From positions 62,001 to 126,000 of the forward strand of contig NZ_JABBGE010000002.1 in the NCBI RefSeq assembly GCF_012927245.1: a stretch of 64,000 nt of DNA, in the 5' to 3' direction. Both the position numbers and the translations under genes were made by a program. The notes beneath the pieces are model-generated. The model ran no database searches. It had not been told where the DNA came from and saw only the letters and a program-made list of their open reading frames with translations. This DNA comes from Streptomyces sp. R302 (lineage in GTDB: Bacteria; Actinomycetota; Actinomycetes; Streptomycetales; Streptomycetaceae). Positions 3,741 through 35,080 of this stretch are shown here, piece by piece. The stretch's first letter is position 1; each line of letters begins with the position of its first letter.

Positions 3741-3805
3741 TTGTGCGCGCCGTGCCGGAACAGCGAAGAAGCCCTCCCCCGAAGGGAAGGGCTTCTTCGA
3801 TCGCG

Positions 3806-3878
3806 TACCCCCGACCGGATTCGAACCGGCGCTACCGCCTTGAGAGGGCGGCGTGCTAGGCCGCTACACAACGGGGGC
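3806..3878 (-). tRNA. tRNA-Glu (CTC)
   Basis: 73-nt cloverleaf on the minus strand. The acceptor starts GCCCCCG and pairs with CGGGGGT; T-arm GGTTCGAATCC; anticodon stem CCGCC/GGCGG around loop CTCTCAA gives anticodon CTC (Glu, GAG). No CCA is encoded. First of three identical copies in the cluster. Confidence 0.95.
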
Positions 3879-3914
3879 TTTGGATCATGCGGGCGTTTCC
3901 GCCGCAGATCCGAG

Positions 3915-3986
3915 CTGGTCTACCAGGACTCGAACCTAGACTAACTGAACCAGAATCAGTCGTGCTGCCAATTACACCATAGACCA
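3915..3986 (-). tRNA. tRNA-Gln (CTG)
   Basis: 72-nt cloverleaf; acceptor TGGTCTA/TAGACCA with discriminator G; anticodon stem ACTGA/TCAGT around TTCTGGT gives CTG (Gln, CAG). T-loop GGTTCGAGTCC. It differs from the second Gln copy at 4258-4329 in the acceptor stem and T-stem only. Confidence 0.95.
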
Positions 3987-4008
3987 ATACGTGGTTAGAC
4001 CAGCGTCG

Positions 4009-4081
4009 TACCCCCGACCGGATTCGAACCGGCGCTACCGCCTTGAGAGGGCGGCGTGCTAGGCCGCTACACAACGGGGGC
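4009..4081 (-). tRNA. tRNA-Glu (CTC), second copy
   Basis: Base-for-base copy of the tRNA at 3806-3878, anticodon CTC, no encoded CCA. It lies 22 bases upstream (transcription sense) of the first tRNA-Gln. Confidence 0.95.
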
Positions 4082-4142
4082 CCTAGCGATCCTGCATCGG
4101 CGTCACCGGGAGCTACCCAGGTGACCCCGCGGGAAGGATCTG

Positions 4143-4215
4143 TACCCCCGACCGGATTCGAACCGGCGCTACCGCCTTGAGAGGGCGGCGTGCTAGGCCG
4201 CTACACAACGGGGGC
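4143..4215 (-). tRNA. tRNA-Glu (CTC), third copy
   Basis: Identical to the other two Glu copies. The 61-base spacer between copies two and three is unrelated to the spacer between one and two, so only the mature tRNA is conserved. Confidence 0.95.
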
Positions 4216-4257
4216 TCGTGGATGCCAATCCACTGGTTTGCAGATGAGCTCTGCGAG

Positions 4258-4329
4258 CTGGCCTACCTGGACTCGAACCAAGACTAACTGAACCAGAATC
4301 AGTCGTGCTGCCAATTACACCATAGGCCA
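4258..4329 (-). tRNA. tRNA-Gln (CTG), second copy
   Basis: 72-nt cloverleaf with acceptor TGGCCTA/TAGGCCA, discriminator G and anticodon CTG. It is the first tRNA in transcription order of the five-gene cluster. It carries compensatory changes against the other Gln gene (GGCCTA/TAGGCC against GGTCTA/TAGACC), which keep the stem paired. Confidence 0.95.
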
Positions 4330-30663: not shown

Positions 30664-31917
30664 ATGTCGTCTCATGCTACCCCCGACCCCTACGCCAGCC
30701 CGATCGCTTTCGGGCAGCGCATGCAGATCCTCCGGGAGCGGCGGGGCATGACCCGCCAGGTGCTCGCGGGCCTCCTGGGCCGGTCCCCCGATTGGGTCAA
30801 GTCCGTCGAGGCCGGCCGCATGCAGGCACCGGGCCTGGAGATGGTCTACCGCATCGCCGAGGCGCTGCGCGTACGTGAGCTGGCCGACCTCACCGGACAT
30901 GGCGAGCACACCGTGAACCTCTTCACCGGGCCCGGGCACCCCCGTCTCGGGGCCGTACGCGAGGCGATCGAGCAACTGTCGCTCGGCACCGCGGGCAACC
31001 CGCCGCCGACCCCCGCCCACCTCGCGGCGCGCCTGGAGGTGGCATGGACCGCCCGGCACAGGGCACCCGATCACCGCGACCGGATCGGCGCCATACTCCC
31101 GGGCCTGATCCGAGATGCCCAGCTCGCGGTGGAGCACGCCGAGACCCCGAGCGACTGGCGCGCCGCCCAAGCCGTCTTGGCCGAGACGTATTCCCTGGCG
31201 CAGTTCTTCCTCGCGTACCAGCCTGACGCCTCCCTGCTGTGGCGGGTCGCAGAACGGAGCATGGTCGCGGCCCGGCAGTCCGGGGACCCTCACGCTGTCG
31301 GGGTCTCCGCGTGGCTCCTCGCCCAGGCCCACCGGGACACCGGCCCCAGTCACTACGATGCGGCGGACGACATCACCGCCCAGGCGATCGAATACCTGGA
31401 GCCTCTCTTGCCCGACGCCGACGCCACGGTGCTCGCCGTGGCGGGTGCCCTCCAGTTCGAGGCCGGTTACACCGCCGCCAGACGCGGTGCCACGGCCACC
31501 GCCTGGAGTCGCTGGGACACCGCCCGGGAGATGGCGGAACGGCTCCCCGAGGGCTACTACCACCCCATCACCAGCTTCTCCGAGGCGATCATGGGCGCCC
31601 ACGCCGTGACCGTCGCGGTCGAGCTGCACCAAGGGGCGGAGTCCGTGCGGCAGGCGGCCCGCGCCGACGCCACCACCATCCCGTCCAGGCCTCGCCGCGC
31701 GCGCCACCGCATCGAGGAGGCCCGTGGCTACCACCTCGACGGACAGCCGGACGTCGCCCTCGCAACTCTGGCGATGGCACACGAGGCGGCCCCGGAGACG
31801 ATCCGCTACAACGGGTACGCCCGCAGCATCCTCCTGGAGGCATGCGAGTCCAAGGTCACCTCCCGTCGGCGCCGCGCATCCGAACTCGCTGTCGAGATGG
31901 GCCTCTTGGCCGCCTGA
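30664..31917 (+). CDS. XRE-type helix-turn-helix regulator with TPR-like C-terminus, graspetide-cluster associated
   Basis: 417 residues starting MSSHATPDPYASPIAFGQRM with AAGGAG 8 bases upstream. N-terminal XRE HTH at about residues 16-75 (LRERRGMTRQVLAGLLGRSP, DWVKSVEAGR), then about 320 residues of helical repeats of the kind seen in streptomycete XRE/TPR regulators that sense small ligands or peptides. It precedes the graspetide genes by 86 bases on the same strand and ends with helix-rich RRRRASELAVEMGLLAA. Likely the cluster's own regulator. Confidence 0.85.
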   Translation: MSSHATPDPYASPIAFGQRMQILRERRGMTRQVLAGLLGRSPDWVKSVEAGRMQAPGLEMVYRIAEALRVRELADLTGHGEHTVNLFTGPGHPRLGAVREAIEQLSLGTAGNPPPTPAHLAARLEVAWTARHRAPDHRDRIGAILPGLIRDAQLAVEHAETPSDWRAAQAVLAETYSLAQFFLAYQPDASLLWRVAERSMVAARQSGDPHAVGVSAWLLAQAHRDTGPSHYDAADDITAQAIEYLEPLLPDADATVLAVAGALQFEAGYTAARRGATATAWSRWDTAREMAERLPEGYYHPITSFSEAIMGAHAVTVAVELHQGAESVRQAARADATTIPSRPRRARHRIEEARGYHLDGQPDVALATLAMAHEAAPETIRYNGYARSILLEACESKVTSRRRRASELAVEMGLLAA

Positions 31918-32003: not shown

Positions 32004-32468
32004 ATGTCTGAGCAGATCCAGCACGTCAGGCCGCACGAGAACACACGGGCCATCCCCATCGGGAGCCTGCTCCTGGAGGACGGCCCGTCGGTAGACCGGC
32101 GCGCTGAACGGCTCGCCGAGGGGACCATCCACCGCGTCCTCGCGATGCGGGACCACCCCGGCGAGGCCGAGCTCGCCCGCATCACGAACGACTTGCTCAC
32201 CTACTGCACCGTCCTCGCCAACGGTCTCGACACCGTTCCCGACGGTGACCTGTGCACGCGCGGTCAGGCCGCCCTCGTCGCGTGGGACCAGCTGCGGACG
32301 GACGGCCCGGCCGACGGGCCCCTGGGCACGTGGTCCTACCCCCGGCACCTCGCGCACTGCGCCCGGGACATGATGACCGCCATCCGCGAGTACCGGCAGA
32401 ACGCTGCGTCCGCAGCGCGGTTCATCGGCCGGACCGTTCTGCCGCCCGTCGCCACGGACACTCCGTGA
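32004..32468 (+). CDS. DUF6415-family protein of natural-product clusters
   Basis: 154 residues starting MSEQIQHVRPHENTRAIPIG, with TAGGGAGCGAG directly upstream. Helical, with features recalled from DUF6415 family natural-product biosynthesis proteins: LLEDGPSVDRRAERLA, LARITNDLLTYCTVLANGLD and LAHCARDMMTAIREYRQ. Biochemical role unknown. Its stop overlaps the start of the 27-residue membrane peptide (GTGA), so the two are translationally coupled. Opens the graspetide biosynthetic set. Confidence 0.72.
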   Translation: MSEQIQHVRPHENTRAIPIGSLLLEDGPSVDRRAERLAEGTIHRVLAMRDHPGEAELARITNDLLTYCTVLANGLDTVPDGDLCTRGQAALVAWDQLRTDGPADGPLGTWSYPRHLAHCARDMMTAIREYRQNAASAARFIGRTVLPPVATDTP

Positions 32469-32548
32469 CGGAGCGCTGGCGGCAGGCCCTGTACTTCCTC
32501 ACCGTCCTCGCGATCCTCGCCGCTCTCGTCTACGGCATCGCCCACTGA
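32465..32548 (+). CDS. 27-residue single-membrane-span peptide, translationally coupled
   Basis: GTG start overlapping the DUF6415 stop by 4 bases. The peptide begins VTERWRQALYFLTVLA and continues as an uninterrupted hydrophobic stretch to GIAH: a basic N-terminus and one helix of about 18 residues. No known family. The coupling (GTGA) and hydrophobicity support real translation; position between the DUF6415 gene and the precursor suggests a role in the graspetide system. Could be an immunity, export or membrane-anchor peptide. Confidence 0.55.
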   Translation: MTERWRQALYFLTVLAILAALVYGIAH

Positions 32549-32622
32549 CTCCCTTCACGGCGGCTGCCGGCTGCCGTCGAACGGGTGCACAACGCCAAGA
32601 ACACCAACAGAGAGAGGGCCCC

Positions 32623-32904
32623 ATGTCCGCATTGATCGCCGAGCGCGCCCCCACCGTTTCCCACGACATCAGCACCGCGCCGACCGGGCCCGTGGCCACC
32701 CGGCCGTTCGGGCTCGACTCGCTCACCGGCCTCGCCTCCGTGTCCGGCCGCCGACCGCTCCTCGGCGTCGACCCCATCACGCAGCTCTCGCTCGTCGACG
32801 GCCGCCCGGCGATCGACACCCCGGGCATGAACGGCACCGCGTGCAACACGGAGAGCGACGGGCGCGACGCCATCGCGGTCGACTACGACCAGAACGACGA
32901 CTGA
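32623..32904 (+). CDS. tgmA: graspetide (ATP-grasp-modified RiPP) precursor peptide
   Basis: 93 residues starting MSALIAERAPTVSHDIST. Leader includes ATRPFGLDSLTGL (residues 25-37), like the conserved leader helix recognised by graspetide ligases. The likely core is the C-terminal ~30 residues from DTPGMNGTACNTESDGRDAI to the acidic end VDYDQNDD. Candidate acceptors Thr66, Thr72, Thr76, Ser78 and donors Glu77, Asp79, Asp82, Asp87, Asp89, Asp92, Asp93 are clustered there. An Asp79-Gly80 pair is a plausible aspartimide site. Stop overlaps the ligase start by one base. RBS is AGAGAGAGG. Confidence 0.85.
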   Translation: MSALIAERAPTVSHDISTAPTGPVATRPFGLDSLTGLASVSGRRPLLGVDPITQLSLVDGRPAIDTPGMNGTACNTESDGRDAIAVDYDQNDD

Positions 32905-33905
32905 TGCCCCCCTCGGGACAGAGCACGCGCGGCGGATCCTCGCCGCGCGTGCTCGTCGTCACCTTCGCCCTCGACCCCACCGCGGACTACGTGCTCCGCG
33001 AACTCAACCGCCGCGGCGTCCCGTTCTGGCGGACGGACCTCGCCGGCTTCCCCGCGCACACCCGTCTGTCCGCCGCGCTCGGATCGTCCGGCCGCTGGGG
33101 CGGCACCATGCGGGGCGACGTCCACGGCATCGACTTGTCCGAGCTGCGTGCCGTCTGGTGGCGCAAGCCCACCCCGTACGCCTTCCCCACGACCATGAGC
33201 GAGCCCGAGCAGCGCTTCGCCCGGACCCAAGCCAAGCACGCTCTTTCCGGAGTCCTCGGTTCCCTTCCTGATGTGCTCTGGGTCAACCGCCCTGAGGCGA
33301 ACGCGGACTGCACCAAGCCCCGCCAGCTTGCCGTGGCGGTGGAGTCCGGGCTGCACGTCCCGGAGACCCTGATCACCAACGAACCGGCCGCAGTCGCCGA
33401 GTTCGCCGAGCGCGTCGGTGGACCGGTCATCACCAAAGTCCTCGGCGGGATCGTCCACACCGAGGACGGCAAGCGGGGTCAGCTCTACACCCGCCGGGTG
33501 CCGCCCGAACAGTACGCGGACTCGCGCATCGCCCTGACCGCTCACCTGTTCCAGCGCGAGATCACGGACAAGGCGTACGAGGTGCGCGTCGCGGTCGTCG
33601 ACGGGCAGCTCTTCCCGGTGGCCGTCCACGCCGCAGCCGGCCCCGAGCAGCTCGACTGGCGGCGCGATTCCGCCGGCCACTCCTACAGTGCGGTCACGAT
33701 GCCCGACCCCGTACGCGAGGGCGTCCGCGTGATGATGCGACGCCTGGGGCTCGTCTACGCCGCGCTGGACTTCATCGTCGACAGCCGCGGCACGTACTTC
33801 CTCATCGACGTCAACCCCAACGGCCAGTGGGCCTGGATCGACCTGACCCGCGACGCCATCACCCACGCGCTCGCCGACCTCCTGGAGAAGGGCCACCCCC
33901 GATGA
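32904..33905 (+). CDS. tgmB: ATP-grasp graspetide ligase (macrolactone/lactam-forming peptide maturase)
   Basis: 333 residues starting MPPSGQSTRGGSSPRVLVVT. It is an ATP-grasp ligase of the MvdCD/TgmB type: the N-terminal pre-ATP-grasp domain (LVVTFALDPTADYVLREL, RAVWWRKPTPYAF) then the ATP-grasp domain (VITKVLGGIVHTEDGK, LFQREITDKAYEVRVAVVDG, and the metal-binding C-terminal strand DFIVDSRGTYFLIDVNPNGQ). It activates Asp/Glu side chains with ATP and joins them to Ser/Thr/Lys side chains of the precursor. The start overlaps tgmA by one base and its stop overlaps tgmC by four. Confidence 0.93.
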   Translation: MPPSGQSTRGGSSPRVLVVTFALDPTADYVLRELNRRGVPFWRTDLAGFPAHTRLSAALGSSGRWGGTMRGDVHGIDLSELRAVWWRKPTPYAFPTTMSEPEQRFARTQAKHALSGVLGSLPDVLWVNRPEANADCTKPRQLAVAVESGLHVPETLITNEPAAVAEFAERVGGPVITKVLGGIVHTEDGKRGQLYTRRVPPEQYADSRIALTAHLFQREITDKAYEVRVAVVDGQLFPVAVHAAAGPEQLDWRRDSAGHSYSAVTMPDPVREGVRVMMRRLGLVYAALDFIVDSRGTYFLIDVNPNGQWAWIDLTRDAITHALADLLEKGHPR

Positions 33906-35080
33906 CAGCCCACGACCTCGACACCGAGGCGTCCACCGCCCGGGCGCAGCTCACCCAGTCCCTCGCCGACGCCGGCGTCATCACCGATCCCGCCTGGCGT
34001 GCGGCGTTCAGGGAGGTCCCCCGGCATCTCTTCGTACCCGCCTTCTACGATCACACCGGCCGGCTCATCCGCGGGGACGACCCTGGTACGGCGGCGGAAT
34101 GGTTCGCAGCCGTACACGACGACCGTCCCCTGGTCACCCGTCGAACCGACGGAGTCGCCACCTCGTCGAGCACGGAGCCCTCGCTCATGGCCGAGATGCT
34201 GCACGCCCTGGACGTCGAGGACGGCATGCGTGTCCTGGAGATCGGCACCGGCACCGGGTACAACGCCGGGTTGCTCGCCCACCGCCTCGGGGGTGCCCAG
34301 GTCGTCACCGTCGACCTCTCCCCCGACATCACCGGGCCCGCGCGGGCCCACCTCGCGGCCGCCGGCCTCTCACCGTTCGTCGTCACGGGGGACGGTGTCG
34401 ACGGCTGGCCGTCGGGAGCGCCGTACGACCGGATCATCGCCACGTGCAGGCTGCACGCGATCCCGCTTCCGCTGCTTCAGCAGCTCACGGCCGATGGTCT
34501 TCTCCTCGCCCCGCTCGGCGGCGCGCTTGCGCTCCTGCGCCGCACCGGGTCCGACGCCGCCGAGGGGCGCTTCCTGTCGCGCGCGTTCTTCATGGCCATG
34601 CGGCGCGGCGGGGCCGACACCGGGGTCAGCCGACGGCCCCCGCTGCCTGAGGGCCGCGCCCGGCAGTCCTCGGTGGGCGCCTCGCTCCTCGCCGACAACG
34701 ACTTCCGGTTCCTCGTCAGCGTCGTCGCCCCTGGCCTCGTGTGGCAGTACGACCTCACCCAGGAGGGGAAGCCGGAGGCAGCGCGGGTCTGGGCGCCGGA
34801 CGGATCGATCGCCTCGCTGGCCGCTGACGGTTCCGTACGGGAGGCGGGTCCGCGCCGTCTGTGGGCGCTGATCGAGGACGCACACGACGTGTTCGTCGAC
34901 GCGGATTCGCCCGGCCCCGGCCGATACGGGGTGAGCGTGACGGGACCGGAGCAGCGCGTCTGGCTCGACGAGCCCGGCGGGCACGGCTGGGGCCTGATCG
35001 GCAGCGGGACCGTCCCACCACCTCCAGCAGCATGCGGGCGGCCGGCCGCGGCGCGCGATCCGCGGCATGGCTGGGGATGA
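33902..35080 (+). CDS. tgmC: graspetide-associated PIMT-like O-methyltransferase
   Basis: 392 residues starting MTAHDLDTEASTARAQLTQS. It is homologous to protein-L-isoaspartate O-methyltransferase: FREVPRHLFVPAFYD, the SAM-binding VLEIGTGTGYNAGLLAHRLG and APYDRIIATCRLHAIPLPLL. In characterised systems (ThfM of fuscimiditide) such enzymes methylate an Asp side chain in the cyclised core, which then collapses to an aspartimide. ATGA overlap with tgmB. After about residue 365 (GWGLIGSGT) the last ~24 residues are Pro/Ala/Arg-rich and may be read-through, because the gene's 3' end overlaps an acetyltransferase remnant. Confidence 0.88.
   Translation: MTAHDLDTEASTARAQLTQSLADAGVITDPAWRAAFREVPRHLFVPAFYDHTGRLIRGDDPGTAAEWFAAVHDDRPLVTRRTDGVATSSSTEPSLMAEMLHALDVEDGMRVLEIGTGTGYNAGLLAHRLGGAQVVTVDLSPDITGPARAHLAAAGLSPFVVTGDGVDGWPSGAPYDRIIATCRLHAIPLPLLQQLTADGLLLAPLGGALALLRRTGSDAAEGRFLSRAFFMAMRRGGADTGVSRRPPLPEGRARQSSVGASLLADNDFRFLVSVVAPGLVWQYDLTQEGKPEAARVWAPDGSIASLAADGSVREAGPRRLWALIEDAHDVFVDADSPGPGRYGVSVTGPEQRVWLDEPGGHGWGLIGSGTVPPPPAACGRPAAARDPRHGWG

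Follow-up and report, generated by a model that had tools for sequence, protein, structure and literature searches.

Prli42 has 31 residues and the topology of a single membrane helix. According to the available text of PMC9840623, this stressosome miniprotein holds the soluble protein RsbR1 at the membrane, while its physiological role is itself unclear; to that extent, the analogue counts against an anchoring role for the micropeptide described here. The two are alike as tiny single-helix membrane proteins tied to a regulatory protein, a tie that in the case of the micropeptide is proposed. The Prli42 model (NF033880) has no match to the peptide of the window, i.e., the whole 64,000-nucleotide stretch of Streptomyces DNA that was analysed, and matches 3 of 24 members of the peptide family weakly (best E value 0.0059). 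In contrast to Prli42, the micropeptide gene overlaps a companion gene, sits in HTH cassettes and belongs to another phylum.

With the Rgg/SHP and RRNPP systems the locus shares a regulator of a predicted HTH-TPR type, a short hydrophobic peptide and RiPP operons downstream. It differs from them in that a companion gene lies between regulator and peptide, the N-terminal half of the peptide is the most conserved, and Streptomyces is its host; a survey of RRNPP systems, in the portion of its text available, covered Firmicutes and viruses (PMC10075063). In the excerpts consulted, cassettes of a related type are built from paralogues of BldB, WhiJ and AbaA (PMC10294661), and DUF397-DUF5753 regulator pairs co-occur with some graspetide groups (PMC13097080). 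These XRE-DUF397 and WhiJ-BldB-AbaA arrangements resemble the present one in having an HTH regulator beside small companions and HATPase (AbaA-like) genes, and some peptide genes overlap HATPase genes. The consulted portions of PMC13097080 and PMC10294661 mention no membrane micropeptide, and the companion in the window, unlike that of the XRE-DUF397 pairs, is DUF6415-like and has no DUF397 match in the Pfam search. Finally, a graspetide operon of the tgmABC type lies directly downstream in the window, whereas the peptide is absent from 28 of 28 loci ranked by TgmB.

The micropeptide gene and its neighbourhood

The first-pass annotation had described a GTG codon that overlaps the stop of the DUF6415 gene by four bases and opens a hydrophobic frame, and this was confirmed (32465-32548, 27 residues). 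The start codon GTG at 32465-32467 and the DUF6415 stop codon TGA at 32466-32468 combine in the four-base overlap GTGA, and the micropeptide frame closes at the TGA at 32546-32548. Translation of the frame from 32465 yields VTERWRQALYFLTVLAILAALVYGIAH, a product of 27 residues whose N-terminus, MTERWRQ, has a net charge of +1 (R4 and R6 against E3); a single hydrophobic stretch comes next. The placement of the frame between the DUF6415 gene and the precursor was likewise borne out, the putative precursor starting at 32623, 74 bases downstream (Table 1). A sigma-70-type promoter, a terminator pattern and an unusual fold were sought in this gap (32549..32622), and none was found.

Table 1. Predicted features around the micropeptide gene, in window coordinates
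Feature	Position	Strand	Basis or remark
Regulator, 417 residues, HTH_31 and predicted helical (TPR-like) repeats	30664..31917	+	Pfam HTH_31 E value 4.9e-11; start from comparison with L289; model, Foldseek
DUF6415-like companion, 154 residues, predicted four-helix core	32004..32468	+	PF19979 25.9 bits; model; tree
Membrane micropeptide gene (predicted)	32465..32548	+	27 codons; GTG start shares four bases with DUF6415 stop; family conservation
Gap, micropeptide to precursor	32549..32622	+	74 bases
Putative graspetide precursor (TgmA-like)	32623..32904	+	TIGR04186 18.5 bits, cut-off 25
ATP-grasp maturase (TgmB-like)	32904..33905	+	TIGR04187 349.4 bits, cut-off 350
Methyltransferase (TgmC-like)	33902..35080	+	TIGR04188 300.7 bits, cut-off 380

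Conservation of the micropeptide family

When the 27 residues were first searched against 150 genomes, most matches were weak; several matches (in G046, G012 and G038) lie directly downstream of independently found PF19979 matches. The same micro-ORF, with the GTGA overlap, is present past the ends of most homologues of the window DUF6415 gene, and 7 of 7 named Streptomyces relatives carry the peptide with the identical overlap. After the DUF6415 homologues of L108, L110 and L111 the micro-ORF is decayed, altered or absent. In L111 the DUF6415 gene itself is interrupted by a stop and has apparently undergone a deletion, through which its frame continues into the final part of a helix resembling that of the peptide; judged from these features, it looks like a decayed copy.

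In an alignment of 15 members, residues R6, Q7, Y10 and G24 are invariant. The profile of these 15 members matches 34 of 392 sampled Streptomyces genomes at an E value of 0.01 or lower (best 1e-16). An order-level draw gave matches in 14 of 245 genomes, all of them Streptomyces (1 of 8 genera), and a class-level draw in 4 of 246 genomes, corresponding to 2 of 103 genera when a non-Streptomyces match is counted. That match, the only one of its kind in the class-level draw, is partial (E value 0.0045), lies inside a frame of 499 codons and was taken as chance. Among the loci compared, 36 distinct members score below 1e-4, and 32 of the 36 overlap the stop of the upstream ORF by exactly four bases.

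Residue conservation was counted in 44 sequences, comprising the listing of family members plus L112 and L116 and leaving out L267, L268, L271 and the poorest matches of that listing as well as the more divergent overlapping peptides of L155, L159, L162, L207, L227, L182 and L198. Among the 44, Y10 is kept in 43, Q7 in 42, G24 in 38, R6 in 37 and E3 in 34. Conservation is strongest in the N-terminal half, which includes the family's conserved juxtamembrane motif, E-x-x-R-Q-x-x-Y; the part that follows G24 has a length of 2 to 23 residues. Positions 16, 19 and 24 all hold small residues in 39 of the 44 members, whereas 2,000 shuffles of each helix gave this in 1.1 members on average and in 6 at most; since the members are related, the pattern is read as constraint and not as a set of independent events.

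The family has a codon-position GC content of 0.71/0.42/0.91 (404 codons, 15 members), and values of this kind are the usual coding pattern in Streptomyces. Pairwise pN/pS over 26 codons ranges from 0.21 to 1.23 and from 0.40 to 1.23 in a shifted-frame control, and is uninformative alone. As a further control, a hydrophobic micro-ORF with the four-base overlap follows 7 of the 381 genes called in the fetched loci, six of these genes being DUF6415 and the seventh micro-ORF (L084) being itself a family member after another gene; because four of the seven (L082, L084, L085 and L088) lie in loci fetched for the peptide, and a simple gene caller was used, this control is weaker than one on whole genomes. 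The corresponding figure for DUF6415 genes is 15 of 104, a set that was taken from the listed matches without the weak ones that close the listing.

It is barely conceivable that the frame is untranslated, arose by chance or is a mere translational spacer. Pairwise pN/pS is not consistently low and GC-rich DNA keeps frames open easily, as such an account would have it, but the same protein, with its conserved residues and coding-type codon positions, follows unrelated genes, recurring in unrelated contexts at E values from 1e-16 to 1e-4. A chance frame was therefore rejected on the conservation of the family, and on comparative grounds the micropeptide of the window is a real gene. The earlier proposal of a genuine micropeptide with one predicted membrane helix, placed for translational coupling to the DUF6415 gene, is supported.

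Searches of Pfam and NCBIfam gave nothing at cut-off for 24 family members, and plasmid records contained no match to the family consensus. The peptide is not described in the titles and opening abstract lines of open-licence literature on DUF6415, Streptomyces small ORFs, RRNPP/peptide quorum sensing and graspetide small ORFs. DUF6415 appears in one paper of this literature, which is unrelated, and a term search of the text available for the Streptomyces small-ORF paper PMC10654065 returned neither XRE nor RiPP. The family thus defined is conserved in Streptomyces and apparently undescribed.

The size and hydrophobicity of the peptide, together with its small-residue face, suit a self-assembling helix, and they raise the question of a small membrane-active effector, similar to a holin or a type I toxin, that would be restrained by the HTH regulator and the companion. 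XRE-DUF397 pairs have been proposed as toxin-antitoxin systems, according to the available portion of PMC10364602. Neither Pfam nor NCBIfam, however, gave a toxin or holin match at cut-off, and the conserved, presumably cytoplasmic E-x-x-R-Q-x-x-Y suggests contact with a protein rather than lysis, so that we regard an effector of this type as quite improbable.

Companion genes

The DUF6415-like protein of the window scores just under the gathering cut-off of PF19979 (25.9 against 27.5 bits; E value 1.8e-5) and clusters with other DUF6415 domains in a tree. That tree (123 domains) contains a strongly supported group of 23 rows, 20 of them labelled as having the peptide and three with a profile match just downstream. 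The latter (L008, L255 and L271) were labelled 'none' by the strict overlap rule, and the match in L271 is shortened. In five other DUF6415 genes (L228, L236, L238, L240 and L241), which form a group not directly sister to the 23 rows, a predicted C-terminal membrane helix is fused to DUF6415. Seven rows elsewhere on the tree have other overlapping hydrophobic micro-ORFs, and under the rule applied 91 of the 123 lack a helix of this kind; the survey covered DUF6415 rows of at least 60 residues that lie wholly within a contig. The structural model of DUF6415 has a predicted four-helix core with disordered tails, for which no confident match was found in the PDB (best Foldseek E value 0.88; best Z 7.3), a result that does not show a new fold.

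Three of the five fused-helix genes also have an overlapping hydrophobic micro-ORF of another type. DUF6415 genes followed by overlapping hydrophobic micro-ORFs of other sequence types were seen, in addition, in L155, L159 and L162, in L207 and L227, and in L182, L198 and L221; these micro-ORFs are possibly distant relatives of the peptide.

The peptide gene also overlaps or adjoins genes of the HATPase_c_2, small cysteine-rich, short MSEQYEYVPH and GVECLG types, among others. When ten such or neighbouring proteins were compared with Pfam, the HATPase was recognised and two more matched weakly. The association of the peptide with DUF6415 is not exclusive. In L296 and L301 the peptide lies near an HTH gene and a protein judged by eye to be DUF397-like (BldB-type), an arrangement that possibly links the family with the WhiJ/BldB cassettes.

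The upstream HTH regulator

An HTH-type regulator, usually with TPR-like repeats, is a more constant neighbour of the peptide gene than the companion and is found within about 3.2 kb of it in 35 of 38 loci, against a chance expectation of approximately 6% (78 HTH_31 matches in a 7.95-Mb genome). Regulators of the window type (64-71% identity) keep the peptide together with either a DUF6415 companion (L289, L291) or a GVECLG-type companion (L303, whose regulator is 64% identical to that of the window). The cassette predicted from these loci consists of an HTH-TPR regulator, a small companion and the micropeptide as its last gene, and stands before different peptide-product operons. The label 'has peptide' can be mapped onto the DUF6415 tree with 9 changes (24.8 when shuffled) and onto the regulator tree (FastTree only) with 18 (36.6 when shuffled); as it is clustered on both, the trees do not decide the partner.

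The regulator of the window was modelled from three sequences, and the weak model obtained (pLDDT 63) has an HTH domain and helical repeats. With Foldseek, ComR ranked first (E value 6.4e-4), and PlcR, Rap, Rgg2, PrgX and NprR were among the best 50, with low TM-scores; in a second structural comparison, unrelated TPR proteins reached an equal Z. RRNPP receptors are expected to have 250-500 residues and peptide-binding TPRs. The window regulator has 417 residues and HTH_31, with TPR-like repeats in the low-confidence model. Adjacency of propeptide and receptor, as in RRNPP systems, was not found in the window, where the DUF6415 gene lies between, or in the loci whose gene order was compared, where the peptide overlaps the companion and not the regulator.

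These resemblances would fit an RRNPP-like signal, in which the propeptide would be secreted and processed, and its C-terminal part, once back inside cells, would bind the TPR domain of the regulator and switch on the RiPP operon. In addition to the Foldseek ranking, the HTH gene near 35 of 38 peptide genes and the RiPP-type maturases downstream in 8 of 38 loci are consistent with such a signal, and a cassette placed before RiPP operons mirrors the control of RaS-RiPPs by Rgg/SHP, as given in the available excerpt of PMC13361665. Against this, the model is weak, its TM-scores are low and unrelated TPR proteins score equally; the DUF6415 gene separates the peptide gene of the window from the regulator; a peptide with its most conserved residues in the N-terminal half and a tail of variable length is unlike a C-terminal signal; and the helix has a patterned packing face. 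We consider a signal of this kind unlikely, while still a serious candidate. The wider proposal that Streptomyces has an RRNPP-like system hidden from annotation, with an HTH-TPR receptor and a micropeptide signal forming a portable switch before graspetide, radical-SAM and MNIO operons, i.e., an actinobacterial counterpart of Rgg/SHP, is likewise unlikely.

Graspetide genes and other cargo

All three tgm-like genes of the window fall below their NCBIfam cut-offs, the maturase by less than 1 bit. The first-pass annotation had coupled the micropeptide to this operon and suggested that its absence from related tgmABC loci would speak against the connection. In the nearest graspetide locus, L061 (TgmA 52%, TgmB 74% and TgmC 58% identical), the upstream region is different and has neither DUF6415 nor the peptide, and the peptide is equally absent from the 27 other loci chosen by TgmB rank. 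Of the 35 graspetide loci examined, a set without L097 (shorter than 5,000 bases), L081 alone has the peptide, and that locus had been fetched for it. Conversely, graspetide genes follow in none of the 7 named DUF6415 relatives with the peptide. Membership of the peptide in the graspetide machinery thus found no support, and a graspetide-specific role was rejected as a general one.

Graspetide genes follow the peptide in the window, L081 and L310. RiPP-type genes are downstream of the cassette in 8 of 38 loci, namely these three graspetide loci, four with radical-SAM genes (L308, L312, L302 and L298) and one with an MNIO gene (L311). In other loci the next gene encodes a protein with a VDxGWHxxIxHT-like motif or one of the MRLDTFHAF type, while L088 contains regulator, DUF6415 gene and peptide with no cargo, a convergent gene coming after.

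An accessory of the peptide product, whether a maturation anchor, an export helper or a self-protection peptide for graspetides or other RiPPs, would account for the peptide genes found upstream of graspetide genes in three loci, of radical-SAM genes in four and of an MNIO gene in one. However, several cargos with no chemical relation to one another follow the same peptide, the cassette of L088 has none, and the peptide is missing from all 28 TgmB-ranked loci, the closest relative included; we therefore give an accessory role little weight. By its distribution, the peptide is not a standard graspetide component and belongs to the regulator cassette. As two further graspetide loci (L081 and L310) carry it, the peptide is likely to have a part in controlling operons of this type.

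Several features of the cargo may be added. The gene at L311:3302-4678 (-) encodes an MNIO-type RiPP maturase (MbnB_TglH_ChrH, E value 6.7e-77) downstream of the cassette. In two genomes the cassette is followed by radical-SAM/SPASM genes that resemble each other, at L308:6293-7198 (+) and L312:6160-7068 (+); these perhaps represent an undescribed peptide-maturation operon. The VDxGWHxxIxHT-like family is a recurrent cargo (L085, L090, L239, L288, L292, L307, L309 and L311), some of its members having cysteines near the C-terminus; two of these proteins were tested and had no Pfam match. L301 has tgmBC genes as well, on the strand of the peptide and several kb before it; these lie beyond the cassette and were not counted. 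The genome of the window has a second TgmB-like locus, G000:C19:129863-130783 (L092), without the peptide.

Proposed role of the micropeptide

Sequence comparison establishes the reality of the gene, its conservation, the overlap, the linkage to HTH genes, the turnover of companion and cargo, and the existence of DUF6415 homologues with a predicted C-terminal membrane helix of their own. Tentatively, and at slightly less than an even chance, we favour the explanation that the peptide is a membrane-anchored subunit of the cassette which tethers the regulator or the companion. An anchor is preferred because of the conservation of the N-terminal half, the patterned face of the helix and the group of DUF6415 proteins with a fused helix; since the companion varies, the tethered protein is given as regulator or companion. 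The evidence from the fused helix is indirect, given the position of that group on the tree and the further micro-ORFs in three of its five members, and the majority of DUF6415 genes (91 of 123 rows), which lack a helix of this kind, speak against an anchor.

For the micropeptide we infer translation, topology, oligomerisation, binding partner and regulatory step as follows. It would be made by termination-reinitiation from the companion gene and would insert in the membrane with its short N-terminus in the cytoplasm. There, it might pack with itself or with a partner through the small-residue face of the helix (positions 16, 19/20 and 24), while the juxtamembrane E-x-x-R-Q-x-x-Y would hold the regulator or companion at the membrane. 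Tethering or release could then set the expression of the downstream operon, here the putative graspetide genes.

A conserved family that starts inside the stop of another gene marks regulator cassettes, some of which precede peptide-product operons. Should the peptide anchor the HTH-TPR regulator or act on it as a signal, it would provide a direct means of activating silent clusters of the graspetide, radical-SAM and MNIO kinds, and the family would explain some of the small genes without assignment that surround the numerous XRE loci in Streptomyces. For annotators, the profile of the family, i.e., E-x-x-R-Q-x-x-Y followed by a helix face of small residues, can serve as a search tool.

Elsewhere in the window, five tRNA genes, in the order Glu, Gln, Glu, Glu and Gln, are located at 3805-4329 (-).
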